A stretch of DNA of 64,000 nt, taken from assembly GCF_024714495.1 (NCBI RefSeq), contig NZ_JAMZMJ010000003.1, forward strand, positions 248,001 through 312,000. Direction: 5' to 3'. The notes beneath the pieces are model-generated. The model did not search any database. It was not told the origin of the DNA and saw nothing but the letters and a program-made list of their open reading frames with translations. The DNA comes from Marinoscillum pacificum (GTDB lineage Bacteria; Bacteroidota; Bacteroidia; Cytophagales; Cyclobacteriaceae). Made by a program: the position numbers and the translations under genes. The first letter of the stretch is position 1; each line of letters opens with the position of its first letter. Positions 1,248-17,748 of this stretch are shown here, one piece after another.

Positions 1248-1292
1248 GTAACAATTGTTACGATCCAGACCAGCAGCTAATCCGTATCTTTA
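1248..1292 (+). promoter_or_regulatory. Promoter with GTAAC-N4-GTTAC box and -7 element (site A)
   Basis: GTAACAATTGTTAC (1248-1261) is a perfect 14-bp palindrome. A -7 element TATCTTTA (1285-1292; consensus TAnnTTTG, 7/8) starts 30.5 bp from the box centre. It precedes the hydroxylase-DsrE-Crp/Fnr operon, so the regulator gene may be autoregulated. Confidence 0.7.
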
Positions 1293-1313
1293 TCCAGTAA
1301 ATGACGCATAAAG

Positions 1314-2207
1314 ATGAAAGAGTTCATAGATGAAATCATCAATGGGTATGTAGGCTATGCCAATTACCTGTGGCAGGAAATCACACACCCTGCCTGGCAC
1401 AATTACTTCTATTGGTTAGTAGGAGTATCGTTGTTCTTTTTGATGCTGGAGTGGGCCAAGCCATGGCGTAAAGATCAGGCCAGGTTCAGAAAGGATTTCT
1501 GGTTGGACTTCTTCTATATGTTCTTTAATTTCTTCTTGTTCTCCCTGATCATTTACAATGCAGCTTCCAATTTGGTGGTACATTTCTTCAATGATTTGTT
1601 AGCATCTATCGGCATCCAAAACCTGGTAGCCTTTGAAGTGATGAGCTGGCCGATTTGGGCACACTTGTTAGTTGGGTTTGTGGTTCGAGATTTTGTGCAG
1701 TGGTGGACCCATAGATTATTGCATACTAGCCCGAGACTATGGGAGTTTCACAAAGTACACCACTCGGTAGAGGAGATGGGTTTTGCGGCGCATTTAAGAT
1801 ACCATTGGATGGAAACCATTGTCTATCGTTCTATCGAATATATTCCTTTAGCACTAATAGGTATTGGACTAAGAGACTTCTTTATCATCCACATTTTTAC
1901 ATTGGCAGTAGGTCATTTTAATCATTCAAACATCAAAGTGAACTTGGGCTTTTTAAAATACATTTTCAATAACCCACAAATGCACATCTGGCATCATGCT
2001 CACAACATGCCGGAGAGTCATAAAAACGGAGTGAATTTTGGGATTACCTTGAGTATCTGGGACTATTTGTTTCGTACGGATTACATTCCCTATGAAGGGC
2101 GAGATATCAAACTTGGCTTTCCTGGTGTAGAGAAGTTTCCTAAAGGTTTTATAGGGCAAAACCTTCATGGTTTTGGTAAGGACAAACCCGAAGAAACTGA
2201 GCGTTAA
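1314..2207 (+). CDS. Sterol desaturase / fatty acid hydroxylase family protein
   Basis: This is an integral-membrane di-iron oxygenase of the fatty-acid-hydroxylase superfamily. Histidine clusters that bind the metals are visible: HRLLH (133-137), HKVHH (146-150), HFNH (201-204) and HIWHH (224-228). Hydrophobic segments occur near residues 30-48, 62-88, 112-130 and 170-200. The family hydroxylates or desaturates lipids or sterol-like molecules; the substrate here is unknown. It is the first gene after operator box A and is followed 26 bp later by a DsrE protein and then a Crp/Fnr regulator. An O2- and iron-dependent membrane enzyme therefore appears to be co-expressed with sulfur genes. In Bacteroidota, relatives often sit beside sulfur-handling genes, but a direct link is inference. 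Confidence 0.88.
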   Translation: MKEFIDEIINGYVGYANYLWQEITHPAWHNYFYWLVGVSLFFLMLEWAKPWRKDQARFRKDFWLDFFYMFFNFFLFSLIIYNAASNLVVHFFNDLLASIGIQNLVAFEVMSWPIWAHLLVGFVVRDFVQWWTHRLLHTSPRLWEFHKVHHSVEEMGFAAHLRYHWMETIVYRSIEYIPLALIGIGLRDFFIIHIFTLAVGHFNHSNIKVNLGFLKYIFNNPQMHIWHHAHNMPESHKNGVNFGITLSIWDYLFRTDYIPYEGRDIKLGFPGVEKFPKGFIGQNLHGFGKDKPEETER

Positions 2208-2233
2208 TAGCTCAAAATCTTTTACATTTAGAT

Positions 2234-2755
2234 ATGCGAACACTTTTCATTTTTGCATTGACTTTGGTCAGTATCTCGGCAATAGCACAAGAGTTGGAGT
2301 ATCCTGTTATCAAAGGATATGGAGGAGTGGTAAGGGCTCCGGAAGCAATAATGCCCACGGAAGGAGGTAAAATCATTATTGATATAGCCAGTGACCAAAC
2401 AACAGGAGAAGGAACTAATAAATCGTTAGACCGTGTTGCCAGATTGATCAACCTTTATGGTTTGGCTGGTATACAGCCATCACAGTTGGATGTAGCAGTG
2501 ATTGTGCACGGAGGTGCTACCAAGACGGTGATTAGCAATGCTGGGTTCAATGAAAAGTATGGGACGGATAATCCTGATTTGCTGTTGATCAAGGCATTGA
2601 AAGAGCAAGGAGTCAAAGTAATGGTATGTAGTCAGGCGCTACTGAGACGTGGATTTAAACAGGAATGGCTCAATGAAGAGGTAGACCTGACACTATCAGC
2701 TATTACTACCCTGGTAGAGTATCAGCAAAAGGGCTACAGCACCCTTATTTACTAG
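2234..2755 (+). CDS. Periplasmic DsrE/DsrF-like family protein
   Basis: A signal peptide (MRTLFIFALTLVSISAIAQ) is followed by a DsrE-like domain (residues ~45-170). The domain carries the hallmark 'AVIVHGGATK' strand-loop and a conserved single cysteine, C132, in 'VMVCSQALLRRG', the usual position for the persulfide-carrying Cys. DsrE-family proteins carry or transfer sulfane sulfur. Export puts this one in the periplasm, unlike the cytoplasmic DsrEFH complex. It lies 26 bp after the hydroxylase gene and 7 bp before the Crp/Fnr gene, so these three are almost certainly one transcript. Its role in periplasmic persulfide handling is inferred. Confidence 0.85.
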   Translation: MRTLFIFALTLVSISAIAQELEYPVIKGYGGVVRAPEAIMPTEGGKIIIDIASDQTTGEGTNKSLDRVARLINLYGLAGIQPSQLDVAVIVHGGATKTVISNAGFNEKYGTDNPDLLLIKALKEQGVKVMVCSQALLRRGFKQEWLNEEVDLTLSAITTLVEYQQKGYSTLIY

Positions 2756-2762
2756 AAAAACT

Positions 2763-3392
2763 ATGCAAGAACTTGTAAATAAAGTACTCAATAACTCTCA
2801 GCTTGAACCTAAACTGGCTGATGAGATCATGACAATTGGCCGTCTGAAAAAGGTGAAGGCTGGGGGAGTGGTCATTAGTCCGGAGAGTGACAGTAATGAA
2901 ATGCCTATTGTGCTCGAAGGTTTGCTGAAAGTGATGAGAAGAGACCCTAATGGCAATGAAGTGTTTCTTTACTTTCTTGAGGGTGGTGAAACATGCGCCA
3001 TGTCCATTACCTGTTGCATAGAGGGTAAGAAGAAAGCCTTTAATGTGATCGCTGAGGAGGACTCAGTACTTTGGATGATTCCAATGGGGCATATCGATAG
3101 TTGGGTAGTAAAATACCCTTCATTCAGAAAATTCGTTTTTGATGCCTATCAGACACGTTTTGATGAGATGCTCAACACGATAGATAGTGTGGTGTTTTTG
3201 AAAATGGATGAGCGTCTTTACAAATACCTGCTCGATAAGAAGCAAGCGTCTGGATCGTTTGTAATCAATAAGACGCATGAGCAAATAGCTAATGAATTGA
3301 ATACATCCAGAGTGGTTGTGTCCCGATTATTGAAGCAATTGGAGAAAGAAGAGAAAATTGAACAGCATCGTAATAGAATAGAGATTCTCTGA
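2763..3392 (+). CDS. Crp/Fnr family transcriptional regulator with a CxxxxxCC cluster; candidate sulfur sensor
   Basis: The 209 residues comprise a cNMP-binding-fold sensor (about 20-125), a dimer helix (125-150) and a winged helix-turn-helix (150-205, with recognition segment NELNTSRVVVSRLLKQLE). Its only three cysteines, C78, C84 and C85, cluster in 'GGETCAMSITCCIEGKK', where Crp has its cAMP phosphate-binding cassette. There is no N-terminal Fe-S cysteine set as in Fnr and no intact cAMP-binding motif. The Crp glutamate that reads TGTGA is a Val here, so a different half-site is expected. It is embedded among sulfur genes whose promoters share GTAAC-N4-GTTAC boxes, one of them upstream of its own operon. 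I infer that it senses reactive sulfur by cysteine chemistry and activates this regulon. Confidence 0.88.
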   Translation: MQELVNKVLNNSQLEPKLADEIMTIGRLKKVKAGGVVISPESDSNEMPIVLEGLLKVMRRDPNGNEVFLYFLEGGETCAMSITCCIEGKKKAFNVIAEEDSVLWMIPMGHIDSWVVKYPSFRKFVFDAYQTRFDEMLNTIDSVVFLKMDERLYKYLLDKKQASGSFVINKTHEQIANELNTSRVVVSRLLKQLEKEEKIEQHRNRIEIL

Positions 3393-3398
3393 TCGTGT

Positions 3399-3442
3399 GT
3401 GACAAATGTTACATCGGACGAGACAGTCAAGGTCTAGTTTTG
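3399..3442 (+). promoter_or_regulatory. Promoter with GTGAC-N4-GTTAC box and -7 element (site B)
   Basis: GTGACAAATGTTAC (3399-3412; 9/10 half-site matches) is followed by TAGTTTTG (3435-3442), a full TAnnTTTG match starting 29.5 bp from the box centre. TAAATTTG at 3449-3456 is a second candidate -7. It precedes the SulP-DUF202 genes and begins 7 bp after the Crp/Fnr stop codon. Confidence 0.7.
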
Positions 3443-3469
3443 AGCTTGTAAATTTGAAGATGTAACTAC

Positions 3470-5194
3470 ATGAACATAATCCAAAAAATACTACCCATTG
3501 CCAGCTGGCTACCGGCCTATAAAAAGGAAGATTTGAGCGGAGATGTCTTTGCTGGTATTACGGTGGGAATCATGTTAATACCACAAGGTATGGCCTATGC
3601 ATTGATCGCCGGCATGCCTCCTGTGTATGGTTTATACGCCTCTATAGTACCTCAGCTCATCTACGCGATATTTGGCACCTCTCGTCAGCTGTCAGTGGCT
3701 CCCGTGGCTATGGACTCTCTCTTAGTAGCGGCAGGAGTTTCTGTACTGGCTACAGAAGGAACGGATGCTTATATTGGTTTTGCTATTTTGCTGGCATTTT
3801 TCATGGGGTTATTTCAATTGCTCCTGGGAGTGGCCCGTTTGGGTTTCATTACCAATTTACTCGCCAAGCCTGTAATTAGTGGGTTCACCTCAGCAGCAGC
3901 CCTGATTATTGGTCTCAACCAACTCAAATACCTACTGGGAGTAGAGCTCGATAAAAGCAATAAAGTATATGAAATCCTGTGGAGTGCTATCCAGAGTGTG
4001 GAGCAAACGCATGTCATCACACTCATTATTGGAGTGTTGGGGATTGTGATTATTAAGGGTGTCAATAAAATCAATAACAAAATACCAGGAGCATTGCTGG
4101 CGGTGGCTTTGGGAACTATGCTGGTTTATTTCATGAAGTTAGACCAGTCTGGGGTAAGTATTGTGAAAACCATTCCCGATGGACTGCCAGCGTTCAAAAT
4201 GCCTCAGTTTAGTCTTGGACAGCTTGGAGAACTGGTGCCGCTGGCCCTGACCATTTCGGTGGTGGCATTCATGGAGGCTTTTTCAGTATCCAAAGCTATC
4301 GAGGCGAAGAAGAGAAACTATAAAATCATTCCCAATCAGGAGTTAATTGCCTTGGGAGCATCCAATTTGGTAGGGTCGTTTTTTCAAAGTTTTCCGGTGA
4401 CAGGAGGATTTTCCAGGTCAGCAGTAAATTATCAATCGGGGGCCAATACTCCTCTTTCTTCTATTATCAGTGCGGTATTGGTAGGCTTGACTTTGATATT
4501 TCTTACTCCATTGTTTTATTTCTTACCGACAGCAATTCTTGCATCTGTGATCATGGTTGCGGTGGTTGGATTGGTTGATTGGGTATATGCCAAACAACTT
4601 TGGAAAGATAGTAAAGTGGAATTTGCGCTGTTGATGGTCACTTTTTTAGTGACTTTGAATTTTAGCATGGTCCCGGGTATTGTGTCGGGTATTGTATTGT
4701 CAATTTTGATTTTGCTGTACAAGTTGGCATATCCACATATTGCTCAGTTGGGTCGGGTAAAAGGACATCATGAGTTTAGAAATATTAAGCGCTTTAAAGA
4801 TCTGGAAAAATGGGAGGGAGTGATGATACTGCGAATGGATGGTCCACTCACTTTTATCAACATTCAGTATTTTAAAGAATACATTGAAGATAGCGTGGAG
4901 GAATCCAATGGTCAATTAAAAACCATTATTTTGGATGCAGGTCCAGTGAGTTATTTGGATGCTACAGCAGCGTTGGGATTAAGAGAATTGTTGGTCTATC
5001 TGAATGAAAAGAAGGTGGAGCTACTTATTTGTGATTTGATAGGACCAGTACGAGATACACTGAAACGTACTGGTTTGAAAGAAATTCTGAATGAGAACAA
5101 TGTCTTCTTTGATCTAAGCGAGGCAGTTAAGTTTGTGCAAACGCACCAACACGGCGATTATAAAGAGTATGCATTGCAATCAAATGAAGTTTAA
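3470..5194 (+). CDS. SulP family inorganic anion transporter (sulfate permease-like) with STAS domain
   Basis: At 574 residues this has the usual SulP length. A 12-14-helix transport domain (about 12-430) opens with the family signature 'AGITVGIMLIPQGMAYALIAGMPPVYGLY' (key parts GITVG, PQGMAYA, GMPPVYGLY) and includes 'NLVGSFFQSFPVTGGFSRSAVN'. A cytoplasmic STAS domain follows (about 440-555, with 'DAGPVSYLDATAALGL'). SulP proteins move sulfate, bicarbonate or other anions. The operator box in its promoter and its place in the sulfur island suggest export or import of sulfate, sulfite or thiosulfate as the end or start of the pathway, but anion specificity cannot be read from sequence. DUF202 follows after 6 bp. 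Confidence 0.92.
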   Translation: MNIIQKILPIASWLPAYKKEDLSGDVFAGITVGIMLIPQGMAYALIAGMPPVYGLYASIVPQLIYAIFGTSRQLSVAPVAMDSLLVAAGVSVLATEGTDAYIGFAILLAFFMGLFQLLLGVARLGFITNLLAKPVISGFTSAAALIIGLNQLKYLLGVELDKSNKVYEILWSAIQSVEQTHVITLIIGVLGIVIIKGVNKINNKIPGALLAVALGTMLVYFMKLDQSGVSIVKTIPDGLPAFKMPQFSLGQLGELVPLALTISVVAFMEAFSVSKAIEAKKRNYKIIPNQELIALGASNLVGSFFQSFPVTGGFSRSAVNYQSGANTPLSSIISAVLVGLTLIFLTPLFYFLPTAILASVIMVAVVGLVDWVYAKQLWKDSKVEFALLMVTFLVTLNFSMVPGIVSGIVLSILILLYKLAYPHIAQLGRVKGHHEFRNIKRFKDLEKWEGVMILRMDGPLTFINIQYFKEYIEDSVEESNGQLKTIILDAGPVSYLDATAALGLRELLVYLNEKKVELLICDLIGPVRDTLKRTGLKEILNENNVFFDLSEAVKFVQTHQHGDYKEYALQSNEV

Positions 5195-5200
5195 TTAGTT

Positions 5201-5479
5201 ATGATATTAAGAGATCATTTAGCATTAGATAGAACAAAGCTTGCAAATCAGCGAACCGTTCTTTCATTTATTAGAACCAGTTTATATTTAGTTATATCTG
5301 GTATTGCATTAATGAAAGTGGAGGCTTTGGCAGGTATCAGTTGGTTGGGTTATGGAGTTCTGGGGATTAGCCTGGTCGTTTTAATAATTGGTATTTCCAA
5401 TTATTTGATATTTAGAAATAAAATCAAAAACGGATATCAGGAGGCAGATGAATTTCAGCAATTAAAAGAGGGTAACTAA
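5201..5479 (+). CDS. DUF202 (YidH-like) small membrane protein
   Basis: This 92-residue protein begins with 'DHLALDRTKLANQRTVLSFIRT', whose LALDRT.LANERT..L..IRT-type pattern defines DUF202. Two transmembrane segments follow at about 28-47 and 51-71. The molecular function of the family is unknown. It starts 6 bp after the SulP gene, so it is co-transcribed with it. Its last codon and stop overlap the left half of the next operator box (GTAAC at 5472-5476), showing how compact this cluster is. Confidence 0.85.
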   Translation: MILRDHLALDRTKLANQRTVLSFIRTSLYLVISGIALMKVEALAGISWLGYGVLGISLVVLIIGISNYLIFRNKIKNGYQEADEFQQLKEGN

Positions 5480-5515
5480 TGTTACAATCCTAATCATCTG
5501 AACATCGTAATTTTG
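5472..5515 (+). promoter_or_regulatory. Promoter with GTAAC-N4-GTTAC box and -7 element (site C)
   Basis: GTAACTAATGTTAC (5472-5485) is a perfect half-site pair, followed by TAATTTTG (5508-5515), a full TAnnTTTG match starting 29.5 bp from the box centre. The box overlaps the DUF202 stop codon and drives the first persulfide-dioxygenase-like gene. Confidence 0.75.
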
Positions 5516-5561
5516 TATCAGTATTACTTAATAAGATCAGTATAGAGCAAAAATATAGAAC

Positions 5562-6971
5562 ATGAAAGTAGAACAAATATATACAGGCTGTCTTGCTCAA
5601 GGCGCATATTATATAGAGAGCAATGGTGAAGCGGCCATTGTAGATCCATTGAGAGAATCACAGCCATATATTGAAAAAGCGGAGAAGGAAGGAGCTAAGA
5701 TTAAATACATTTTTGAAACACACTTCCATGCTGATTTCGTGTCAGGCCATGTAGATCTTGCAGCTAAAACTGATGCTACGATCGTTTATGGTCCCAATGC
5801 TAAAACCGAGTTCGATATGGTGGAAGCTAAAGATGGACAGGTGTTCGAACTTGGCAAGGTGAAAATCAAAGTGCTGCATACTCCAGGACATACCATGGAA
5901 AGTACCACTTTCTTGTTAATTGATGAAGAAGGTAAGGAGCATGCCATTTTCAGTGGCGACACGTTGTTTATAGGAGACGTAGGTCGTCCAGACCTTGCAC
6001 AGAAAGGATCTTTGACTCAAGATGATTTGGCAGGTTATCTATATGATAGTCTTAGAACCAAAATCATGACATTGCCTGATGAGGTCATAGTCTATCCAGC
6101 ACACGGTGCAGGTTCTGCTTGTGGTAAAAACATGAGTAAGGAGACTACAGATCTTTTGGGTAATCAAAAGAAAACGAATTACGCTTTGAGAGCGAACATG
6201 ACTAAGGAAGAATTTATTCAAGAGGTGACAGATGGTCTTTTACCACCACCTCAGTACTTTGCTCAAAATGTAGCTATGAATAAGTCTGGAGCAGTTGGTT
6301 TGGATGAGATTCTGGAGAAGGGAAATGTTCCATTGGATGTAGATACGTTTGAAGCAATGGCCAATCATGAAGGTGCGTTAGTGCTGGATACAAGAAAGGC
6401 AGTTCAGTTTGCTGAAGCGCATGTGCCAAATTCTATTTTCATCGGTATAGATGGAAGCTTTGCTCCCTGGGTAGGTGCATTGATTCCTGATCTTCAGCAG
6501 CCAATAGTATTCATCGCAGATGAAGGAAGGGAAGAAGAGATCGTTACGCGTCTATCAAGAGTTGGGTATGATAATACACTTGGTTTCTTGAAAGGTGGAC
6601 TTGACGCGTGGAAAGCAGCTGGTAAAGAAGTTGATTCTGTGAAGTCTATTCCTGCTACTGAGTTTGCTGAAGAAATGAAGGCTGGAGACCTGAAAGTGTT
6701 AGACGTTAGAAAGCCAGGCGAATTCCAGGCTGAGCATGTAGAAGATGCACAATCACTTCCATTGGATTTTATTAGTGAAAACATGGATAAAGTGAGTAAA
6801 AATGAGACGTATCACGTACACTGTGCTGGAGGTTATCGATCTATGATCGCTTCCTCCATTTTGAAGTCTCGTGGCTTTCACAATATAGTTGATATTGCAG
6901 GAGGTTTCAAAGCTATTTCTGAAACAGATATTCCTACTACGGACTATGTGTGTCCTAGTACATTAAAATAA
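5562..6971 (+). CDS. MBL-fold persulfide dioxygenase-like protein fused to two rhodanese domains (copy 1)
   Basis: The 469 residues comprise a metallo-beta-lactamase domain (1-~230) with THFHADFVSGH at 53-63, H110 (HTPGH) and D133 (SGDTLF). The spacing H54-H110-D133 fits the iron-binding His-His-Asp triad of ETHE1-type persulfide dioxygenases. Rhodanese domain 1 (~265-350) lacks the catalytic cysteine (IADEGREEE). Rhodanese domain 2 (~365-455) has the active loop CAGGYRS with C421. This is the layout of CstB/ETHE1-rhodanese fusions, which oxidise persulfide to sulfite and thiosulfate in the cytoplasm. Operator box C precedes it. A same-length paralogue lies at 15797. The exact products are inference. 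Confidence 0.9.
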   Translation: MKVEQIYTGCLAQGAYYIESNGEAAIVDPLRESQPYIEKAEKEGAKIKYIFETHFHADFVSGHVDLAAKTDATIVYGPNAKTEFDMVEAKDGQVFELGKVKIKVLHTPGHTMESTTFLLIDEEGKEHAIFSGDTLFIGDVGRPDLAQKGSLTQDDLAGYLYDSLRTKIMTLPDEVIVYPAHGAGSACGKNMSKETTDLLGNQKKTNYALRANMTKEEFIQEVTDGLLPPPQYFAQNVAMNKSGAVGLDEILEKGNVPLDVDTFEAMANHEGALVLDTRKAVQFAEAHVPNSIFIGIDGSFAPWVGALIPDLQQPIVFIADEGREEEIVTRLSRVGYDNTLGFLKGGLDAWKAAGKEVDSVKSIPATEFAEEMKAGDLKVLDVRKPGEFQAEHVEDAQSLPLDFISENMDKVSKNETYHVHCAGGYRSMIASSILKSRGFHNIVDIAGGFKAISETDIPTTDYVCPSTLK

Positions 6972-7023
6972 TTTTCATTCGTACCCTGGTGTAAAAGTCC
7001 AGGGAGACTTTTCAAAGTTGAGT

Positions 7024-7057
7024 AAAAGCGCTGGCCATTGGTCGGCGCTTTTTTATT
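7024..7057 (+). terminator. Rho-independent terminator after MBL-rhodanese copy 1
   Basis: AAAAGCGC (7024-7031) pairs with GCGCTTTT-type sequence ending near 7052, with an inner GGCC/GGTC pairing, and runs into TTTTTTATTTTT. It lies about 55 bp after the stop. Confidence 0.8.
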
Positions 7058-7127
7058 TTTTATTGATGCGCAATTAAACCTTGGTGTGTAATTGGAATCT
7101 AAGGACCAAACGCAACAATAAATAAAC

Positions 7128-7874
7128 ATGAAACAAATCAAACTCATCACAAAACTAATAGCAGTATTAACCATCTTCTTTCTAGCATCATGTAGTCAGG
7201 AAGATGACTCTACAGAAGAAGTTGTAACGGAACTTGAATCCGCTGAAGATATTGGAGCCACTTTATCAGAGGATCTTTTGCCTATAGTTGATGATGCCGA
7301 TGAATTGTCTGATAAGGCATCAGATAATGGTAGGTCTTACGAAGTAAAGGCATGTGGAGTGTCTTATGATACCGCATTTACCAGAGAATATGAAGGGGTT
7401 TATGTGACAAGTAATGCATCTTTTTCCTACGCATACGAACTGGTCTGTAATGGTGCAATTCCTACTACATTAAATCTGGACGCTACTTCTAGTGGAACCA
7501 GAACAACTCAAAGGTTGACTTCTCAAGGAAGTATTACCTCTGAACAGGTTGTGACAGGCATTCAGCCTGGAAGCACCTCTTATGTGGTAAACGGTTTGCT
7601 TGAAAGAACTGGTTCAGTAACAGGAGAGAGTAAATCATTTAGCAGCACAATTAACTTGACCATCACTGATTTGACTGTCACAAAGTCAAATCAGCAAATA
7701 GCGAGTGGGACCGCTACTGTGACTTATGAAGGAACAACCTCTGCTGGTAATTCGATCAGTAGAACTGCTAATGTGAGTTTCCTGGGAGGAGGAGAAGCTG
7801 AATTGACGCTGAATAGTGGAAGAAAATTCCTCGTAAACCTTAGAACTGGTGAAGTAACTGAAATAGAGGATTAA
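7128..7874 (+). CDS. Hypothetical lipoprotein, 248 aa
   Basis: The signal peptide ends in a lipobox FLASC with lipidated C22. An acidic linker follows (SQEDDSTEEVVTELESAED), then a beta-rich Ser/Thr-rich domain (~70-248) with many alternating polar/hydrophobic strands and no detectable catalytic motif. It is probably attached to the outer membrane and possibly surface-exposed, because the acidic run after the Cys resembles a Bacteroidota lipoprotein export signal. It has its own terminator and is the only gene in the plus-strand island here without a GTAAC box, so it may be unrelated to sulfur. I do not recognise the family. Confidence 0.7.
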   Translation: MKQIKLITKLIAVLTIFFLASCSQEDDSTEEVVTELESAEDIGATLSEDLLPIVDDADELSDKASDNGRSYEVKACGVSYDTAFTREYEGVYVTSNASFSYAYELVCNGAIPTTLNLDATSSGTRTTQRLTSQGSITSEQVVTGIQPGSTSYVVNGLLERTGSVTGESKSFSSTINLTITDLTVTKSNQQIASGTATVTYEGTTSAGNSISRTANVSFLGGGEAELTLNSGRKFLVNLRTGEVTEIED

Positions 7875-7905
7875 AATTTAGTTAGTTGGATTAGGTTAGG
7901 CAACG

Positions 7906-7935
7906 ACGCCAGCTCTTTTGGGCTGGCGTTTTTTA
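7906..7935 (+). terminator. Rho-independent terminator after the lipoprotein gene
   Basis: A perfect 8-bp stem ACGCCAGC/GCTGGCGT (7906-7913 and 7922-7929) is followed by a T-run to 7934. Confidence 0.9.
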
Positions 7936-7964
7936 TGATGTCACCCTGATCTCGAAAGCTGGCC

Positions 7965-8249
7965 TTATCTATACCTTTGAGATAATTCTGGAAGTAGATG
8001 CCATTGACGATTAATCAAAGCTTCTTTTTTTGCTCTTCTCCAGCCTTTTACTTGCTTTTCGAAAGCTATTGCTTGATTAACATCTTGGAAGTGTTCTTGA
8101 ATGACCAATTTCAATGGTCTTCTTCTATAAGTGTATGCTTGATGATCGATACCTGATTGATGTTCCCAAAGTCTTCTATCTATATCATTTGTAACACCTA
8201 CATAATAGGACATATCCGCACACTCAAGAATGTAAACTGTATAGAGCAT
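7965..8249 (-). CDS. GIY-YIG nuclease family protein
   Basis: This 94-residue protein matches the stand-alone GIY-YIG domain (UPF0213/YhbQ-like): 'YTVYILECADMSYYVGVTNDIDRRLWEHQSG'. The GIY and YIG equivalents appear as YTVYIL and YYVGVT, the catalytic Arg as R26/R27 and the metal-binding Glu in 'AIAFEKQVKGWRR'. Genes of this type are often scattered in Bacteroidota genomes beside short palindromes that start GTCACCCTGA. Such sequences flank this gene at 7940, 8270-8308 and 8401-8449. A role as a nuclease acting on those repeats is plausible but unproven. Confidence 0.88.
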   Translation of the reverse strand: MLYTVYILECADMSYYVGVTNDIDRRLWEHQSGIDHQAYTYRRRPLKLVIQEHFQDVNQAIAFEKQVKGWRRAKKEALINRQWHLLPELSQRYR

Positions 8250-8269
8250 CCCGATAAATATAGTCTACT

Positions 8270-8308
8270 ATTTTGTCTTATGCTTCGAGAGCCTCAGCAT
8301 GACAAAAT
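8270..8308. repeat. Palindromic repeat next to the GIY-YIG gene
   Basis: ATTTTGTC (8270-8277) and GACAAAAT (8301-8308) form a perfect 8-bp inverted repeat around a 23-bp interior containing 'TCGAGAGCCTCAGCATGAC'. The same GTC...GAC layout recurs at 8401-8449. Confidence 0.65.
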
Positions 8309-8400
8309 AGGGTTAGTGTTTTTAGAGAGGGTTAATTTCTTCGATCAGCATTAAATAATGCATGCCCGCTAGATAACAAAATTGTCAAAGCAGTTATCGA

Positions 8401-8449
8401 AATTGTCACCCTGATCCCGATGGCTAACGGGATCGAAGGGTAGACAATT
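8401..8449. repeat. Long palindromic repeat (GTCACCCTGATCCCG type)
   Basis: Nested arms pair in order: AATTGTC/GACAATT, CCCT/AGGG and ATCCCG/CGGGAT, enclosing an 8-nt loop. A partial copy (GTCACCCTGATCTCGA) starts at 7940 on the other side of the GIY-YIG gene. It also lies just beyond the 3' end of the TonB_C-like gene, so it could serve as a terminator-like structure for it. Confidence 0.75.
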
Positions 8450-8456
8450 TCTGATC

Positions 8457-8900: not shown

Positions 8901-8914
8901 TTTAGATTGGGTAC

Positions 8915-11331: not shown

Positions 11332-11438
11332 TTTTTTTTGGAAAGTTAATAACCGATCGCCAGAATCTCGAATGAAATTGGGATTGGTTGTACTTAAGAA
11401 ATTTTGCCTGAATAGAGCTAATCTTTCTCACTTGCTGT

Positions 11439-11482
11439 GTAACAAATGTTACTTCAAGCGGTAAGTGAAAAATCTACTTTTG
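11439..11482 (+). promoter_or_regulatory. Promoter with GTAAC-N4-GTTAC box and -7 element (site D)
   Basis: GTAACAAATGTTAC (11439-11452) has both half-sites intact, and TACTTTTG (11475-11482) is a full TAnnTTTG match starting 29.5 bp from the box centre. It drives the YeeE-TsdA-porin operon. A search on the opposite strand found no CAAAnnTA at the matching distance for cydA. Confidence 0.75.
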
Positions 11483-11513
11483 AGGCTGAATCACTTGAAA
11501 TTTTTATCATCAC

Positions 11514-12089
11514 ATGAATGAAGTCATAGCGTTTATCAGTCAACCATGGCCATGGTATGTGGCAGGCCCCATCATTTCTTTAGTAATGATCAGCCTCATA
11601 TTATTCGGTAACTCCTTCGGAATATCCGCAAACCTAAGAACCATGTGCTCTATAGTAGGTGCGGGTAAGAATTGTGAGTTTTTTGACTTTAATTGGAAAA
11701 GTCAAATCTGGAATCTGGTATTCGCATTAGGGTTGGTTATTGGAGGTGTTATTGCTCATTTATATTTGACACCAAGTACTGAAGTGAATCTATCTGCTCA
11801 AACCATTGAAGACCTGAAAGCATTAGGAATAGAACAACCAGGAACACATCTGGTACCAATGGATGTGTTCTCATGGCAGTCATTATTCACCGTTCGAGGT
11901 TTCATTATCCTTGTTGTCGGAGGTTTTTTAATCGGTTTTGGGACAAGGTATGCAGGTGGATGTACATCTGGTCACGCTATCAGTGGATTGAGTGACTTGC
12001 AGTTGCCATCACTTATTGCAGTGATTGGATTCTTTATTGGAGGTCTGTTGGTGACCTACCTTGTTCTCCCATTCCTTTATACATTGTAA
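11514..12089 (+). CDS. YeeE/YedE family transporter, larger half
   Basis: This 191-residue membrane protein has about five hydrophobic segments. The central signature 'GFGTRYAGGCTSGHAISGLS' is typical of the YeeE/YedE (SufT/TsuA-type) family, whose cysteines pass thiosulfate or sulfane sulfur across the inner membrane. It is about half the length of TsuA, and the next gene encodes the matching second half (GACPGP motif), a split arrangement common in proteobacteria and Bacteroidota. It is the first gene after operator box D. Transport of thiosulfate or polysulfide-type sulfur is inferred from the family and from the TsdA-like cytochrome downstream. Confidence 0.88.
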   Translation: MNEVIAFISQPWPWYVAGPIISLVMISLILFGNSFGISANLRTMCSIVGAGKNCEFFDFNWKSQIWNLVFALGLVIGGVIAHLYLTPSTEVNLSAQTIEDLKALGIEQPGTHLVPMDVFSWQSLFTVRGFIILVVGGFLIGFGTRYAGGCTSGHAISGLSDLQLPSLIAVIGFFIGGLLVTYLVLPFLYTL

Positions 12090-12102
12090 AACATAGGATA
12101 AA

Positions 12103-12516
12103 ATGAAGTTTTTAAGATATATAGTTATAGGAATTGTTTTTGGAATCACATTAGCCAAAGCTGAAGTGGTATCCTGGTATAGAATTTATGAAATGTTCAA
12201 GTTTGAATCATTTCATATGTATGGAATCATTGGATCTGCAGTTGTCATTGGAATTGTTGCTATACAAATCATTAAACGATTCAAGATCAAGTCAATAGAT
12301 GGACAGCCAATTCACATTCACCCAAAGCAGTTTAGCATTCCAAGATATCTGATAGGAGGTATTGTTTTCGGATTGGGCTGGGCGATGACAGGAGCATGTC
12401 CAGGTCCAATGTTCATTTTGCTAGGCAACGGAGTAGGTGTTATTTTAGTTGTAATAGGAGCTGCAGTGTTAGGTACGTATACCTATGGACGTCTGCGAAA
12501 CAAGCTTCCGCATTAA
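12103..12516 (+). CDS. YeeE/YedE family transporter, smaller half (DUF6691-type)
   Basis: The 137 residues span about four transmembrane segments and carry the motif 'FGLGWAMTGACPGPMFILLGNG', in which the cysteine before PGP is the family's conserved sulfur-relay residue. It follows the larger half by 13 bp and is likely to assemble with it into a full transporter. The start ATG at 12103 follows an AGGATAAA stretch that acts as a weak ribosome site. The next gene starts 4 bp after its stop, indicating tight coupling. Confidence 0.86.
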   Translation: MKFLRYIVIGIVFGITLAKAEVVSWYRIYEMFKFESFHMYGIIGSAVVIGIVAIQIIKRFKIKSIDGQPIHIHPKQFSIPRYLIGGIVFGLGWAMTGACPGPMFILLGNGVGVILVVIGAAVLGTYTYGRLRNKLPH

Positions 12517-12520
12517 GAAA

Positions 12521-13534
12521 ATGAATACCCAAAAAGCAATCAACACCCTGGTGCAAGCTTCTCTTTTGCTGGTAGTTTCGGTTCTGGTGATTTTCGGATC
12601 ATTGATGGTTTATTTCATCAATCCAGAATTGTTTCAGACCCAAGAAGTCGCATGGCATGTACCAAATATCAAAACAGAATTGCCAACGGGAAGAGTTGGT
12701 GATCAAGTTAAATATGGATATGCACTGGTAACTGAAACTTCCAAGTGGATTGGACCAATGGCGCCTGATGGCAAGCAATATGCTGGCAATAATCTGAATT
12801 GCCAGAGTTGTCATCTGGATGCAGGTACTAAAAGAGGGTCTGCATCGTGGATTGGTGTGGTGCAACGATTTCCTCAGTTTGGAGGTCGAGAGAATAAAAT
12901 CGAAACGATCGAAGATCGAGTGAATGGATGCATGGAGCGAAGCATGGATGGTACAGCATTACCGATTGAGTCCAAAGAGATGCAGGCAATCATTGCTTAC
13001 ATGAACTGGTTAGGGGATGGGATTCCTGAAGACACACTGGATTATTTCAAGGGTTTTGCTAAACTGGAGATACCAGATGAAGCTGCTAGTCCAATAAAAG
13101 GTGCTGTGATCTATGAGCAAGAATGTAAAGTTTGCCATGGAGAAAATGGTGCAGGTGTATGGAAGGCAGATTCATCAGGATATCAGTATCCAGCACTTTG
13201 GGGAAAAGACACCTACAATCACGGAGCAGGAATGCATAGAGTGTTGACTGCTGCACAGTTTGTAAAAGGAAATATGCCCTGGGGAGTCGCTACGATTGAT
13301 AACCCTAAACTATCCGATGAGGAAGCGTATCATGTTGCAGCTTATATCAATAGTTTTGAGAGACCTCAAAAGAGCAACACCGATGAAGATTTTCCTAATA
13401 GGAAGTTGAAGCCAATGTCTACTCCTTATGGACCTTATGATGATGACTTTTCACAAGAGCAGCATAAGTATGGGCCATTTCAACCTATTGCCAGCTATTA
13501 CAAAGAGACTTACGATATTAAGAAAAGCAAATGA
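12521..13534 (+). CDS. TsdA-like diheme cytochrome c (thiosulfate dehydrogenase / tetrathionate reductase family)
   Basis: I prefer the ATG at 12521 (337 aa) over the upstream 12485, because 12485 lies inside the preceding gene. A TM anchor (~8-33) is followed by two cytochrome c domains with C94-C97-H98 (NCQSCH) and C202-C205-H206 (CKVCHG). 'NGCMERSMDG' (C137) matches the TsdA motif in which a Cys is the second axial ligand of haem 1. K249 and M252 (KGNMPWG) are candidates for the haem 2 ligand switch. TsdA interconverts thiosulfate and tetrathionate in the periplasm. The GTAAC-controlled operon with YeeE supports a sulfur substrate. Reaction direction cannot be told. Confidence 0.85.
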   Translation: MNTQKAINTLVQASLLLVVSVLVIFGSLMVYFINPELFQTQEVAWHVPNIKTELPTGRVGDQVKYGYALVTETSKWIGPMAPDGKQYAGNNLNCQSCHLDAGTKRGSASWIGVVQRFPQFGGRENKIETIEDRVNGCMERSMDGTALPIESKEMQAIIAYMNWLGDGIPEDTLDYFKGFAKLEIPDEAASPIKGAVIYEQECKVCHGENGAGVWKADSSGYQYPALWGKDTYNHGAGMHRVLTAAQFVKGNMPWGVATIDNPKLSDEEAYHVAAYINSFERPQKSNTDEDFPNRKLKPMSTPYGPYDDDFSQEQHKYGPFQPIASYYKETYDIKKSK

Positions 13535-14865
13535 GATACTTTGGAATCATCGGCTTGTCAATAGTACTAATTGCTAATCTGAAAGCACAGGGCAAATACT
13601 GGGGTAAGGTGTCTGGGCAATGGCGCAACTATTACATGGCATCTTGGAACAAAGAAGATTTGAAAGACTTTCAGACTCTTGCAACAGGAGGTAAGCTGAA
13701 GTATGAATATAACTTCAAAGAGAAACCCTGGAAAGTGGGAGGAGCTATCTACACAAGTATCAATTTGGGATTGCAGGATTTAGATGTCCCAGATCCGATT
13801 ACTGGCAAGTACAGCAGATATGAAACTGGGATGTATAATGGTAATAATTTGTCCGATCGATTTATTCTGTTTCCTGGTGAGCTTTATTTGAATTATTCCA
13901 AAGGTGGACACATGCTAACACTAGGTAGGATGAAGTTTGTTTCACCTTTTCTAAATCCAGAAGACGGAAGGATGATTGCGACGCTTGAACAAGGATTAAC
14001 TTATAAGTATTCTAACAAAGGTTTTGGATCTTTTCAATTTGGAGCATTCAATGCGATAGCAGCCCGTTCATCAGACGGGTTTTATGGCATCGGAGAAACC
14101 ATCGGTTTTTATCCAATAGGTAGAGGTGTGGATGGAAAGGAGGTAAACTATGCCGGGAGTACAGAATCCGATTTTTTATTGACTGGAAACCTGGACTGGA
14201 ATGTCACTGAAAAAATCAAAATCAATGTTTGGGAGTACTATGCAGACAATGTATTCAATACAACCTATATCAAACCAACATTAAGTTTATCAGACGAGTT
14301 GGCCATTGCGGGTGAATGGTTGCATCAGTTTAGAGTAGGAGATGGAGGCAATCAATATGATTCATTAAGATATTTTGCTGATAGAACTTCAAATGTTTTA
14401 GGTGCTGAAGTGAGTTGGAAAGCTGCTAAGAAATCCAAGTTTTCCATAGGATACGATCGTATACTTGATGGAGGGAGATTTCTGTTTCCTCGTGAGTGGG
14501 GTAGGGAGTTTTTGTTCAGCTTCCAGAAGAGAGAGCGGAGTGAAGGTAGTTCAGACAATCATGCACTGGTTTTTACCTATGATCAACAAATCAAGTTGGG
14601 TAACTCCAATCTTAGAAGTATCGCAAGTGTAGGAAGGCATTGGAAAGCTGACTTGACCAACGCAGCAGACAACAAATATGCCGTGCCTGACTATACACAC
14701 TTTAATTTGGATTTATTCTACACCCACGAAAAATTGAAGTCATTGAAGCCAGAACTACTTCTAGTCTATAAAATGGCGAACGGTACTGTGCCAGATAATC
14801 CTAACTTTTACTTCAACAAAGTGGATATGTTTCAAATCAATTTTGTGGTGAATTATAACTTCTAG
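13531..14865 (+). CDS. Outer-membrane beta-barrel (porin-like) protein
   Basis: A signal peptide (cleaved after about ...NLKAQ) leads into a 420-residue protein of alternating beta strands rich in Tyr, Trp and Gly, ending 'DMFQINFVVNYNF' with the terminal Phe required for barrel assembly. It resembles porins of the OprD/OprP/alginate-export size class, although I cannot name the exact family. The start overlaps the cytochrome stop by 4 bp (ATGA), so it is translated with the TsdA/YeeE genes. A role as the outer-membrane pore that lets thiosulfate or tetrathionate reach the periplasmic cytochrome is inference. Confidence 0.8.
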   Translation: MRYFGIIGLSIVLIANLKAQGKYWGKVSGQWRNYYMASWNKEDLKDFQTLATGGKLKYEYNFKEKPWKVGGAIYTSINLGLQDLDVPDPITGKYSRYETGMYNGNNLSDRFILFPGELYLNYSKGGHMLTLGRMKFVSPFLNPEDGRMIATLEQGLTYKYSNKGFGSFQFGAFNAIAARSSDGFYGIGETIGFYPIGRGVDGKEVNYAGSTESDFLLTGNLDWNVTEKIKINVWEYYADNVFNTTYIKPTLSLSDELAIAGEWLHQFRVGDGGNQYDSLRYFADRTSNVLGAEVSWKAAKKSKFSIGYDRILDGGRFLFPREWGREFLFSFQKRERSEGSSDNHALVFTYDQQIKLGNSNLRSIASVGRHWKADLTNAADNKYAVPDYTHFNLDLFYTHEKLKSLKPELLLVYKMANGTVPDNPNFYFNKVDMFQINFVVNYNF

Positions 14866-14998
14866 ATTTTGCCTTTTCTCGTAATATATGGACCCTAAAG
14901 AGGCATAACTGCAATCAATCTGCGGGTAGGAAATTGGCCCATTTATCTGTTTTAATATTAAAAGAGTCTTGTTGTGGAAAGGTTTAAAGGAAAAGGAT

Positions 14999-15391
14999 AT
15001 GAGAGCATTATACAACCAAATATCAGGTTTCGCGCTTATGATTGCTTGCATTATAGTTGGGCTTATTCAAATTCAAGCGAATGCTAAAGCCGGAATAGAA
15101 TCCAATAGCGTGCTCAGGCAGTACCCATTTGTAGGTGGAGAAGACATGAAGAGTTTGGGGATTTATCCAAACCCAGCACATTCATTAGTCCATATTGAAG
15201 TTGAAAAACTACTGGATGGGGTAAGCTTACGGGTGATGAACTTAAGTGGCGTTGAAGTAATGCATCAAAACTTTGCTACCTATAACTCATACGAGATAGA
15301 TTGTTCTAAGTGGTCTAATGGAATTTACATTGTCAATATTCGTGACTCCAATAATACATTATACACAGGTAAATTATTGGTTCATAATTGA
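14999..15391 (+). CDS. Small secreted protein made almost only of a T9SS type A sorting domain
   Basis: The ATG at 14999 has an AAGGAAAAGG ribosome site; an upstream in-frame start at 14969 is less likely. A signal peptide/TM segment (~10-30) is followed by a ~30-residue linker and then a 75-residue T9SS C-terminal domain. The domain starts 'LGIYPNPAHSLVHIEVE', continues 'VMNLSGVEV' and ends 'NGIYIVNIRDSNN...GKLLVHN'. There is no cargo domain between signal and sorting domain, which is unusual because such domains normally follow an enzyme or adhesin. It could be a remnant, a decoy substrate or a tiny surface protein. It lacks an upstream GTAAC box. Confidence 0.8.
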   Translation: MRALYNQISGFALMIACIIVGLIQIQANAKAGIESNSVLRQYPFVGGEDMKSLGIYPNPAHSLVHIEVEKLLDGVSLRVMNLSGVEVMHQNFATYNSYEIDCSKWSNGIYIVNIRDSNNTLYTGKLLVHN

Positions 15392-15563
15392 CGATAAATA
15401 AAGGTGATGCATGCAAGTGATGCAAAGTAGCACATGGGTACATGCTAATGAGTAATTAAAATATTTTCAAAAAAATCATTTAGCTCGGTAGGAATTATTG
15501 AGACATGCCTGTTTTATAGTTGTCGAGTTATTAAAAATATTTATAACTGATGTTAACCGAACT

Positions 15564-15623
15564 ACACCGTTCCGCATTCATTCATACACGGAATGCGCAT
15601 AAGTAATCCCTACTTAACGGTGT
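15564..15623 (+). ncRNA. Candidate structured RNA with three-way-junction potential
   Basis: Three nested perfect stems fit together in 60 bp: P1 ACACCGTT/AACGGTGT (15564-15571 with 15616-15623), P2 CGCATTC/GAATGCG (15573-15579 with 15591-15597) and P3 AAGTA/TACTT (15601-15605 with 15611-15615). A strong terminator follows 16 bp later. The region is not coding on either strand. A DNA recombination or replication structure is the alternative. Confidence 0.45.
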
Positions 15624-15638
15624 GTATTTAAGCTGGAG

Positions 15639-15667
15639 GCCCTGATTTTACCGTCAGGGCTTTTTTT
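15639..15667 (+). terminator. Rho-independent terminator
   Basis: GCCCTGA (15639-15645) pairs with TCAGGGC (15654-15660), followed by seven Ts. It ends whatever is transcribed from the structured region or the small T9SS gene. Confidence 0.92.
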
Positions 15668-15722
15668 ATGGCTTATCAATGATTTTCCTCATTAACTAGC
15701 TTGATCCATGTCAGGATTTTGG

Positions 15723-15767
15723 GTAACATAAGTAACAGGAATACAGTTCGTTACATCCGTATTTTAC
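15723..15767 (+). promoter_or_regulatory. Promoter with near-match GTAAC box (site E)
   Basis: GTAACATAAGTAAC (15723-15736) matches 9 of 10 half-site bases (right half GTAAC instead of GTTAC). TATTTTAC (15760-15767) lies 30.5 bp from the centre but matches TAnnTTTG poorly (6/8). This is the weakest of the six sites and precedes the second persulfide-dioxygenase-like gene. Confidence 0.55.
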
Positions 15768-15796
15768 CATGTGGTTTAACAAATAATATTAATCTC

Positions 15797-17206
15797 ATGA
15801 AAGTAGAACAATTATATACTGGATGTCTGGCAGAAGCCGCTTATTACATTGAATCGGATGGAGAAGTTGCGATCATCGATCCTTTGAGAGAGGTGGAGCC
15901 TTATATTCAGAAAGCTGAAGAAAATGGAGCAAAGATCAAGTATGTGTTGGAGACTCATTTCCATGCAGATTTTGTTTCAGGACATATAGATCTTGCGAAG
16001 AAAACTGGAGCCAGCATTGTTTACGGACCAACAGCTCAGCCCGGTTTTGAAGCCCATGTAGCCACAGATGGAGAGATCCTTCAATTGGGAAGAGTAAAAA
16101 TCAAAGTATTACACACCCCAGGACATACCATGGAATCTTCCACTTTCTTACTGGTGAATGAAGAAGGAGAGGAAGTAGCCATATTCACAGGTGATACTTT
16201 ATTCATTGGTGATGTAGGAAGACCAGATTTAGCAGTAAAAACGGATTTAACCAGAGAAGATTTAGCTGGATATTTGTTCGATTCATTACGAAATAAGATC
16301 ATGACCTTACCAGATGAAGTGATCGTCTATCCAGGTCATGGAGCTGGTTCTGCTTGTGGTAAGAACATGAGCAAAGAAACTACCGATACATTGGGTAATC
16401 AGAAAGAGTTCAATTATGCTTTACGTGCTGATATGAGTAAGGAAGAGTTCATCGGAGAAGTAACTAAAGGCCTGGTACAGCCTCCACAATATTTCCCAAA
16501 AAATGCGGTGATGAATAAGCAAGGATATGAGTCCATAGATGAGGTGCTACAAAGAGGAGTCATTGGCCTTGAACTAAAGGAATTTGAAGATGTAGTAGCA
16601 AGAGATAAAGCGCTTATTCTGGATACTCGTCCAAAAGAGGACTTTGTCAAAGGGTTTATTCCGGGATCATTGTGGGTTGGTATAGATGATAATTTTGCTC
16701 CTTGGGTGGGAGCCTTGATCAAAGATTTGAATCAGCCAATTGTGTTCTTGTCACTTCCTGGAAGAGAAGAAGAAGTAGTTACTCGATTGAGTAGGGTAGG
16801 ATATGATCACGCTCTAGGCTTCTTGGATGGAGGTATCGCCAGTTGGATTGGTGGAGGAAAAGAAGTTGCTACCGTTCAGGAAATCGGACCACACGATTTT
16901 ACCAATATCTACGACACAGAAGTGTTGGATGTATTGGATGTTCGTAAGGAAAGCGAGTTTGAATCTCAGCACATCAAAGGAGCGAAGAATTTCCCATTAG
17001 ACTTCATCTATGATAATCTGGATCAACTGGACAAAGACGGAGAATACTACGTGCATTGCCAGGGAGGTTATCGATCAGTCATTGCAACATCTATTTTATT
17101 AGCTGCAGGCTTCAAAGAAGTCATCAATATTCAAGGTGGATTTAATGAAATCAAGAAATCCTGCATCAAGGTGACGGCCTATCATGCGCCGGAAACCATG
17201 CTGTAG
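15797..17206 (+). CDS. MBL-fold persulfide dioxygenase-like protein fused to two rhodanese domains (copy 2)
   Basis: The start at 15797 gives MKVEQLYTGCL..., collinear with copy 1 and also 469 residues; the in-frame start at 15701 would add 32 residues that overlap the promoter, so I reject it. The MBL motif THFHADFVSGH, the HTPGH histidine and the TGDTLF aspartate are all present. Rhodanese 1 lacks its cysteine (SLPGREEE), while rhodanese 2 keeps it in HCQGGYRS. It should oxidise persulfides like copy 1. The two copies differ along most of the sequence, so the duplication is old. Its operator E is weaker than that of copy 1, which suggests a different induction threshold. Confidence 0.9.
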   Translation: MKVEQLYTGCLAEAAYYIESDGEVAIIDPLREVEPYIQKAEENGAKIKYVLETHFHADFVSGHIDLAKKTGASIVYGPTAQPGFEAHVATDGEILQLGRVKIKVLHTPGHTMESSTFLLVNEEGEEVAIFTGDTLFIGDVGRPDLAVKTDLTREDLAGYLFDSLRNKIMTLPDEVIVYPGHGAGSACGKNMSKETTDTLGNQKEFNYALRADMSKEEFIGEVTKGLVQPPQYFPKNAVMNKQGYESIDEVLQRGVIGLELKEFEDVVARDKALILDTRPKEDFVKGFIPGSLWVGIDDNFAPWVGALIKDLNQPIVFLSLPGREEEVVTRLSRVGYDHALGFLDGGIASWIGGGKEVATVQEIGPHDFTNIYDTEVLDVLDVRKESEFESQHIKGAKNFPLDFIYDNLDQLDKDGEYYVHCQGGYRSVIATSILLAAGFKEVINIQGGFNEIKKSCIKVTAYHAPETML

Positions 17207-17244
17207 GTAATAGGTTGGTTAGCTTTAGACCGATTGTCGGTTCG

Positions 17245-17276
17245 GGAGGTTGGTTTGTGGTGAGCCAACCTCCTTT
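17245..17276 (+). terminator. Rho-independent terminator after MBL-rhodanese copy 2
   Basis: GGAGGTTGG (17245-17253) pairs with CCAACCTCC (17265-17273) around an 11-nt loop, followed by a short T-rich tract (TTTGTTTT). Confidence 0.85.
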
Positions 17277-17301
17277 GTTTTATGAGTTAAAATCATAGTA
17301 C

Positions 17302-17331
17302 TTTGAAATGCAAAGTAAATTCGTATCTTTG
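17302..17331 (+). promoter_or_regulatory. Bacteroidota-type promoter
   Basis: TTTG (17302-17305) and TATCTTTG (17324-17331) fit the TTTG ... TAnnTTTG consensus with 18 bp between them. The start codon of the small membrane protein lies 20 bp downstream. There is no GTAAC box. Confidence 0.65.
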
Positions 17332-17351
17332 TTTTATTAAATGATAAGAAT

Positions 17352-17648
17352 ATGATAATGACTTTTCAAAACAAGCGAATATTAGGAATAGGATTGGCCA
17401 TCGTATTGTTGCTGATGATTCCTCTGGTTGCTATGCAGTTTTCAGATGAAGTGGCCTGGTCAGCATTCGACTTTCTACTCATGGGAGGTTTATTAACGGC
17501 CGTTGGTCTTGCTGTAGAAATTTCTCTCCGTATTCTAAAAACATCTACTCAAAGACTGATAGCCATCGCTGTAGTGTTTATTCTGTTTTTAGTCGTTTGG
17601 ATAGAGCTGGCAGTTGGTGTTTTTGGTACTCCATTTGCAGGCAGCTGA
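17352..17648 (+). CDS. Small membrane protein, 98 aa, three predicted TM helices
   Basis: Hydrophobic segments occur at about residues 9-28, 37-57 and 66-90, joined by short polar loops. I do not recognise a characterised family; similar three-helix proteins of about 100 residues are common in Bacteroidota. It has its own promoter between the terminator of the MBL gene and operator box F, so it seems to be a monocistronic insertion within the sulfur island. The start ATG ATA ATG has an alternative ATG two codons later. No function can be assigned. Confidence 0.65.
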   Translation: MIMTFQNKRILGIGLAIVLLLMIPLVAMQFSDEVAWSAFDFLLMGGLLTAVGLAVEISLRILKTSTQRLIAIAVVFILFLVVWIELAVGVFGTPFAGS

Positions 17649-17663
17649 TTTAAGATGGTCTGT

Positions 17664-17707
17664 GTAACTATTGTTACGCACCAAACCTGTGCAATTGCGT
17701 TTCTTTG
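17664..17707 (+). promoter_or_regulatory. Promoter with GTAAC-N4-GTTAC box and -7 element (site F)
   Basis: GTAACTATTGTTAC (17664-17677) has both half-sites intact. TTTCTTTG (17700-17707; 7/8 to TAnnTTTG) starts 29.5 bp from the box centre. It drives the two-rhodanese operon. Confidence 0.7.
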
Positions 17708-17748
17708 ATTAATTGAATTTGTAAAACAATCATTTAAAGAAATATAAC

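Follow-up and report, generated by a model that had tools for sequence, protein, structure and literature searches.

Sulfur genes of Marinoscillum pacificum and other Bacteroidota are preceded by a fixed-spacing GTRAC-N4-GTYAC box, the probable operator of a Crp/Fnr activator

The stretch of DNA analyzed here, referred to below as the window, comprises 64,000 nucleotides of Marinoscillum pacificum (contig NZ_JAMZMJ010000003.1, positions 248,001 to 312,000), and contains six boxes that match or nearly match GTRAC-N4-GTYAC, each placed at a nearly constant distance from a promoter-like −7 element and each preceding genes of apparent sulfur metabolism. With a probability of about 0.82, these boxes are operators of the class-II type, through which the local Crp/Fnr protein, as an activator, drives a set of genes for the use of sulfide and thiosulfate. 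In the proposed model, a dimer of this protein (encoded at 2763–3392) would bind GTRAC-N4-GTYAC with its centre approximately 41.5 bp before the start (42.5 bp for box 1), where it would stand in for the −33 element and aid the primary sigma factor at the −7 element TAnnTTTG. The activated set would consist of the fusions of a metallo-β-lactamase (MBL) and a rhodanese domain, the rhodaneses, the YeeE transporter with its TsdA-like cytochrome, SulP, and the operon of DsrE and the regulator, and would serve sulfide and thiosulfate oxidation and detoxification; in relatives it would also include sulfide:quinone reductase (SQR), TauE and sulfite dehydrogenase. The box, its spacing, the gene set and the co-occurrence with the Crp gene are apparent from the sequences compared, from which we infer binding, activation and a reduced sulfur species as the signal, perhaps a persulfide sensed by Cys78, Cys84 and Cys85.

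All six boxes lie on the plus strand, and their −7 elements are scored here over the six specified bases of TAnnTTTG, with the gap counted from the box end to the TA, so that a gap of 22 corresponds to 29.5 bp from the box centre and a gap of 23 to 30.5 bp. Four boxes are perfect, namely box 1 (GTAACAATTGTTAC, 1248–1261; −7 element TATCTTTA at 1285–1292, 5/6, gap 23; 25.9 bits), box 3 (GTAACTAATGTTAC, 5472–5485; TAATTTTG at 5508–5515, 6/6, gap 22; 30.1 bits), which overlaps the stop codon of a DUF202 gene (5201–5479), box 4 (GTAACAAATGTTAC, 11439–11452; TACTTTTG at 11475–11482, 6/6, gap 22; 36.4 bits), which sits between the divergent cydA and yeeE, and box 6 (GTAACTATTGTTAC, 17664–17677; TTTCTTTG at 17700–17707, 5/6, gap 22; 26.0 bits). 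The other two carry one mismatch each: box 2 (GTGACAAATGTTAC, 3399–3412; TAGTTTTG at 3435–3442, 6/6, gap 22; 31.4 bits) has GTGAC as its left half, and box 5 (GTAACATAAGTAAC, 15723–15736; TATTTTAC at 15760–15767, 4/6, gap 23; 17.0 bits) has GTAAC as its right half; its box scores well but its −7 element poorly, nearly all of its bits stemming from the former. An earlier note on this DNA had described the same six boxes, with the same division into four perfect and two imperfect ones and the same two distances to the −7 element, all of which was recovered; its count of three to four full −7 matches narrows to three (boxes 2, 3 and 4).

The spacing is what places the boxes with respect to transcription. 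Operators of class-II activators are centred at approximately −41.5. In Flavobacterium psychrophilum, the sigma-A −7 box TAnnTTTG occupies positions −12 to −5 according to the available part of the source (PMC9723704), and with a gap of 22 bp the centre of the box therefore falls at −41.5, so that the class-II placing proposed in the earlier note is borne out as a prediction from spacing. The logo of 157 sites with a gap of 22 shows conserved flanks outside the search pattern (T at −49 in 73% and T at −51 in 65%) and no TTTG near −33. The missing −33 element is by itself weak evidence, because, while Bacteroides promoters combine TAnnTTTG at −7 with TTTG near −33, the −33 motif was also not found in Flavobacterium johnsoniae, as reported in the part of PMC7366714 that was available.

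The composite of box and −7 element is concentrated in the window far beyond chance. When a composite site was defined by a box with at most one mismatch to GTRACN4GTYAC, a −7 element of at least 5/6 and a gap of 22–23, positions 1001–18000 contained five such sites, whereas 300 dinucleotide shuffles yielded 0.03 on average and never more than 1, and 20 stretches of 20 kb taken outside the window in the same genome (400 kb) yielded none; boxes with at most two mismatches numbered 37 versus 18.4 expected. The pattern GTRACN4GTYAC itself occurs at 21 sites in the 6.40-Mb genome, five of them within these 16.4 kb, where approximately 0.05 would be expected if the sites were evenly spread. The signal is thus one of clustering and of the combination of box and −7 element, rather than of the box alone, and the composite sites exceed chance in both the shuffle and the own-genome controls.

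The same arrangement is kept beside homologues of the local Crp protein, which has a match in 107 of the 194 genomes of the order; among the matches listed, seven genomes (its own included) show 58–100% identity, and the others at most 52%, or at most 47% where full-length. A scan of named genomes, from which the best 80 loci were kept, returned genera placed by name in the Cytophagales, Flavobacteriia, Sphingobacteriia and others, with a Marinoscillum metagenome-assembled genome at the top (92%). The window and 99 Crp loci were combined into 100 sequences of 1.86 Mb in all, with L024 (63% identical Crp, short contig) left out. At the main threshold (no more than one deviation from GTRACN4GTYAC in the box, −7 element of at least 5/6, gap 21–24) this set contained 202 sites, versus 12 in the reversed sequence, and at least one site in 83 of the 100 sequences. 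The matching box with a full −7 element was found 83 times, versus 0 in the reversed sequence, and its gaps of 21, 22 and 23 were seen 5, 74 and 4 times, respectively. For the weakest sites, with one mismatch in the box, a −7 element at 5/6 and a gap of 20–26, the count was 31 versus 21 in the control, and those with a gap other than 22 are close to the chance level. Phylogenetic footprinting recovers the motif before orthologous sulfur genes of other genera and of higher groups.

The genes behind the boxes of the window, all on the plus strand, were named by their Pfam and NCBIfam matches, those of the rhodaneses being below cut-off. Box 1 precedes a fatty-acid hydroxylase family protein (1314–2207; PF04116, 99.5 bits), a DsrE family protein (2234–2755; PF02635, 57.6 bits) and the Crp/Fnr regulator proposed as the reader (2763–3392; PF00027, 42.6 bits; PF13545, 47.4 bits), and box 2 a SulP-type anion transporter with a STAS domain (3470–5194; PF00916, PF01740). 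Behind box 3 lies MBL-rhodanese fusion 1 (5562–6971; PF00753, PF00581), and behind box 5 fusion 2 (15800–17206), which was characterized by the NCBIfam search and shares 63% identity with fusion 1. For both fusions, the NCBIfam matches (Blh, hydroxyacylglutathione hydrolase) fall far under the cut-offs, for which reason their identity as persulfide dioxygenases is likely but not certain. Where HxHxDH is the usual motif, both fusions read THFHADFVSGH, with Phe in the place of its last His. Box 4 is followed by the two halves of a YeeE/YedE transporter, A (11514–12089; PF04143) and B (12103–12516; PF20398, PF04143), by a TsdA/SoxA-like cytochrome c (12521–13534; PF21342, PF00034) and by a weakly matching OprD-like porin (13531–14865; PF03573, 26.4 bits versus a cut-off of 25), and box 6 by rhodanese A (17749–18081) and rhodanese B (18096–18487, searched from the later start 18116), for both of which the rhodanese models scored below cut-off. 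Elsewhere in the window, a reading frame of 2238 amino acids (51413–58129) consists of repeats of the type GGVxPYxYxWSNGATT and has, judged by eye, an OmpA-like end.

Across the relatives, the composite site is found upstream of the two MBL-rhodanese labels in 44/66 and 1/6 cases, of YeeE_A in 29/45, of SulP in 16/29, of the hydroxylase in 5/21 and of the rhodanese labels in 5/19 and 3/13, and upstream of only 14 of 1156 unlabelled genes, so that the motif is rare before unrelated genes. With this and with its conservation in other genera, both conditions that the earlier note had named for its refutation were examined, and neither was found to hold. Low rates were also obtained for some labels derived from the window (TsdA 1/6, porin 1/10, DsrE 0/2, DUF202 0/4), and YeeE_B, the second gene of its pair, has a site in 0 of 44 cases. 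The labels derived from the window provide the fair rates; TauE, SQR, SorA, DUF983, Prx, TolC, Trx and rhod_small were picked after they had been seen behind boxes, which biases upward the rates of TauE (22/45), SQR (5/10), sulfite dehydrogenase (2/3), DUF983 (3/8) and peroxiredoxin (2/5). The identities of TauE, SQR, the SorA-type protein and peroxiredoxin rest on representatives, with SQR and SorA scoring 220–233 bits, under the cut-offs of 525 and 600; no close match to the SQR of the relatives was found in the host genome, the best one reaching 24 bits. As for cydA, the genes cydAB of the window (8915–11452) diverge from the yeeE operon across box 4, and cydA of the relatives has an upstream site in 3 of 7 cases, from which the bd oxidase may be a member of the regulon. 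Autoregulation through box 1 is possible in the window, but is not supported as a general feature by the 3 of 102 Crp genes that lie directly behind a site.

The protein that reads the boxes is very probably the local Crp/Fnr protein, as the earlier note had proposed and as the distribution of sites suggests. Of the 160 genomes of the order with an MBL-rhodanese match, 85 provided the 86 listed genes, whose upstream regions were scored with a weight matrix derived from 130 sites at the named loci (threshold of at least 12 bits), the Crp being counted as present at E below 1e-20. Sites were found before 23 of 44 genes in Crp-bearing genomes versus 1 of 42 in Crp-less ones (Fisher p 8.6e-8), and in 16/24 versus 1/29 when counted by genus (p 6.7e-7), p-values that are optimistic since relatives were treated as independent. 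Four of the 23 positive sites, all of genus g3, lie approximately 480 bp upstream of the gene and the rest closer. A second look at where the 30 longer loci start left the positions used in this comparison unchanged. The one Crp-less genome with a site (G107, an assembly 93% complete) belongs to genus g27, in which G121 and G052 have both. The protein itself carries a cNMP-binding-like domain followed by a Crp-type helix-turn-helix, both above cut-off; its AlphaFold monomer (mean pLDDT 87.5, pTM 0.63) has a CRP-like fold, and the 50 Foldseek matches shown all carry a CRP-type annotation or, judged by their titles, appear to be regulators of that type.

The features of this protein that may bear on the signal are three cysteines. 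In an alignment of 67 of 81 possible sequences, Cys78 is invariant and Cys84 and Cys85 are conserved in at least 90%; in the predicted model, Cys78 stands just ahead of a helix (79–87) that contains Cys84 and Cys85, between strands 66–72 and 93–97, a region which we take to be equivalent to the phosphate-binding cassette of CRP, where that protein binds cAMP. In FNR, an N-terminal cysteine cluster holds the [4Fe-4S] centre, and the three cysteines found here are not N-terminal. Conserved cysteines in the region of the ligand pocket suggest a persulfide as the signal, and a persulfide or another thiol-reactive species is our guess because of the target genes. That a Crp/Fnr subfamily spread across the Bacteroidota senses persulfide directly through these residues, whose uptake of sulfane sulfur would make the protein a class-II activator of sulfide and thiosulfate oxidation, is a plausible if tentative extension, to which we would give somewhat less than even odds.

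It has to be noted that several findings, besides the optimistic p-values, weigh against the operator model. Genome-wide, the box alone is not enriched, with 18 perfect sites versus 42 for the backward pattern, and 21 versus 73 in the case of GTRACN4GTYAC. At the main threshold, 17 of the 100 Crp loci are without a site; a weaker box precedes the Crp gene or a labelled sulfur gene in seven of these (L077, L085, L094, L095, L104, L131, L167) and an unlabelled gene in two (L149, L158), with nothing in the remaining eight, and weak boxes also arise by chance. Of the MBL-rhodanese genes in Crp-bearing genomes, 21 of 44 are without a site, and another Crp/Fnr paralogue could read some of the boxes. 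Sites also precede cydA, peroxiredoxin, TolC or RND genes, making the set wider than sulfur. Among the site-less loci, L095 comes from a Balneola sp. whose Crp is 60% identical, and has, at 10676, GTAACTAATGTTAC before YeeE without a −7 match, the name Balneola presumably indicating a lineage outside the classical Bacteroidota, and L158 (1458–2801) is a short contig with a tandem pair of Crp genes of this group.

The breadth of the set would be accounted for by a general redox- or oxygen-responsive Crp/Fnr regulator, in charge of a thiol or respiration response to which the sulfur genes belong. Besides the sites of relatives before cydA, peroxiredoxin and DUF983, this is favoured by the host genome, in which all 18 perfect boxes were inspected: six are inside large reading frames, as are two GTGAC/GTCAC sites on contigs C5 and C11, and three sites outside the window look promoter-like. 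The first (C2:155005, 26.3 bits) is a distant perfect box before a rhodanese-like gene, named from sequence, and a thioredoxin identified by Pfam, a pair that also speaks for the operator model, the second (C31:145781, 24.3 bits, −7 element 4/6) precedes a DUF983 gene, and the third (C32:79797, minus strand, 26.0 bits) precedes a small protein followed by a large one that resembles an RND pump and was named from sequence. The last of these loci (C32, approximately 74000–79800; L179 4084–9947, minus strand) combines a perfect box with a full −7 element, and a pump-like target is unexpected in a sulfur regulon; DUF983 genes stand behind a box in three genomes (L076, L150, L178). Moreover, the cysteines could sense disulfide stress. 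However, near the Crp gene the labelled genes that a site precedes are mostly sulfur genes, and bd oxidase and thioredoxin are also compatible with sulfide stress. A general redox role is rather unlikely.

In a second alternative, the reader of the boxes would be a different Crp/Fnr paralogue or some unrelated protein, with the adjacent gene a bystander. The genome has 22 cNMP-binding matches, 20 of them over the cut-off, and the MBL-rhodanese genes without a site in Crp-bearing genomes point the same way. Against this, the site co-occurs with this particular Crp, and sites were found in just 1 of 6 loci whose Crp is without C-x5-CC, as against 82 of 94 with the motif (p 4e-4), although a single clade supplies four of the five negatives; a bystander role is quite improbable. 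The half-sites also differ with residue 184 of the recognition helix (TSRVVVSR in the local protein), loci with Val184 having 264 GTAAC and 28 GTGAC, and those with Glu184 having 18 and 24, which follows the rule in the available part of Rodionov et al. (PMC1274295) that recognition-helix residues go with the half-site. This link agrees with the operator model, but was rejected as independent evidence, as it comprises 1–3 changes on the tree and 1–2 independent pairs.

An HcpR2-type nitrosative-stress regulon with sulfur genes as side targets would explain the box itself, since the identical consensus, GTAACnnnnGTTAC, was published in 2005 for HcpR2, Bacteroides included, in the part of Rodionov et al. 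available (PMC1274295). It is favoured further by the P. gingivalis HcpR, which has the same fold (rank 26), and by the hcp gene of genome G422, which has GTAACCTTGGTTAC (L182, approximately 3190–3203) with a full −7 element at gap 22; G422 itself has no Crp closely related to this group. On the other hand, no hcp was found in the host genome (no TIGR01703 match), hcp being present in 59 of 247 genomes of the phylum, and among the 30 hcp loci retrieved, that of G422 is the only one preceded by such a box. Five hcp-bearing genomes have no Crp close to this group, their highest profile score being 37 bits, and in a tree built without a verified HcpR2 sequence the Crp homologues of hcp-bearing genomes fall outside the group, on very long branches. 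The targets here are sulfur genes, and residue 184, by our own alignment to CRP numbering, is Val in the local protein and Val or Glu in its relatives, versus Pro in HcpR2 at the position of CRP Glu181. Membership in HcpR2 was not accepted in view of the missing hcp and of this residue, and such a regulon is very improbable. Finally, chance or a composition artefact, to which the lack of genome-wide enrichment and the perfect boxes within reading frames might point, is rejected by the shuffle, reversed-sequence and own-genome controls and by the conservation across groups.

If the operator model holds with a persulfide as the signal, a sulfur-sensing activator would be added to a family known for sensing cAMP, FeS centres and haem, and would act as a main switch of sulfur metabolism in the phylum. 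Many habitats are rich in Bacteroidota, and the control of their sulfide and thiosulfate oxidation was not found in the literature searched. One operator with fixed promoter spacing would make sulfur regulons readable directly from many genomes, and a large group of Crp/Fnr proteins without a name would gain a function, with a conserved cysteine site highlighted. The same operator and spacing occur in two contexts within one phylum, hcp and the sulfur genes, apparently with different Crp/Fnr readers.

The earlier note had known of no described Bacteroidota sulfur regulon with this operator. As to the regulon, this stands, in that no Bacteroidota or flavobacterial Crp/Fnr sulfur regulon was found in the open-access literature searched, which need not cover all print; as to the operator, it has to be amended, as GTAACnnnnGTTAC was printed, in that literature, solely in Rodionov et al. 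2005 for HcpR2.

Among the known systems, CstR and FisR are regulators of sulfide or sulfane-sulfur metabolism, as are BigR/SqrR and SoxR/sHdrR, and all of them resemble the present case in controlling genes of sulfide, persulfide or thiosulfate oxidation. BigR/SqrR and SoxR/sHdrR differ from it, as far as the available parts of the sources go, in being repressors of other families (SoxR and sHdrR of ArsR type), whereas here a Crp/Fnr protein is placed as an activator. HcpR2 is closer in that it is a Crp/Fnr regulator with the operator GTAACnnnnGTTAC, reported in Bacteroides among others, and in that the G422 hcp promoter has the same spacing, but its reported core target is hcp and its specificity position holds Pro, in contrast to the Val or Glu and the other gene set found here (PMC1274295, available part). 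The closest solved structure by both sequence and fold is the Eubacterium rectale Crp/Fnr protein 3dv8, which comes from another phylum and is 25% identical in the fold match. With the class-II CRP/FNR promoters, the proposed promoters share a palindromic 14-bp operator at approximately −41.5 and an activator that would stand beside the sigma-bound core element, and differ from them in the Bacteroidota −7 element TAnnTTTG and in the half-site GTAAC.

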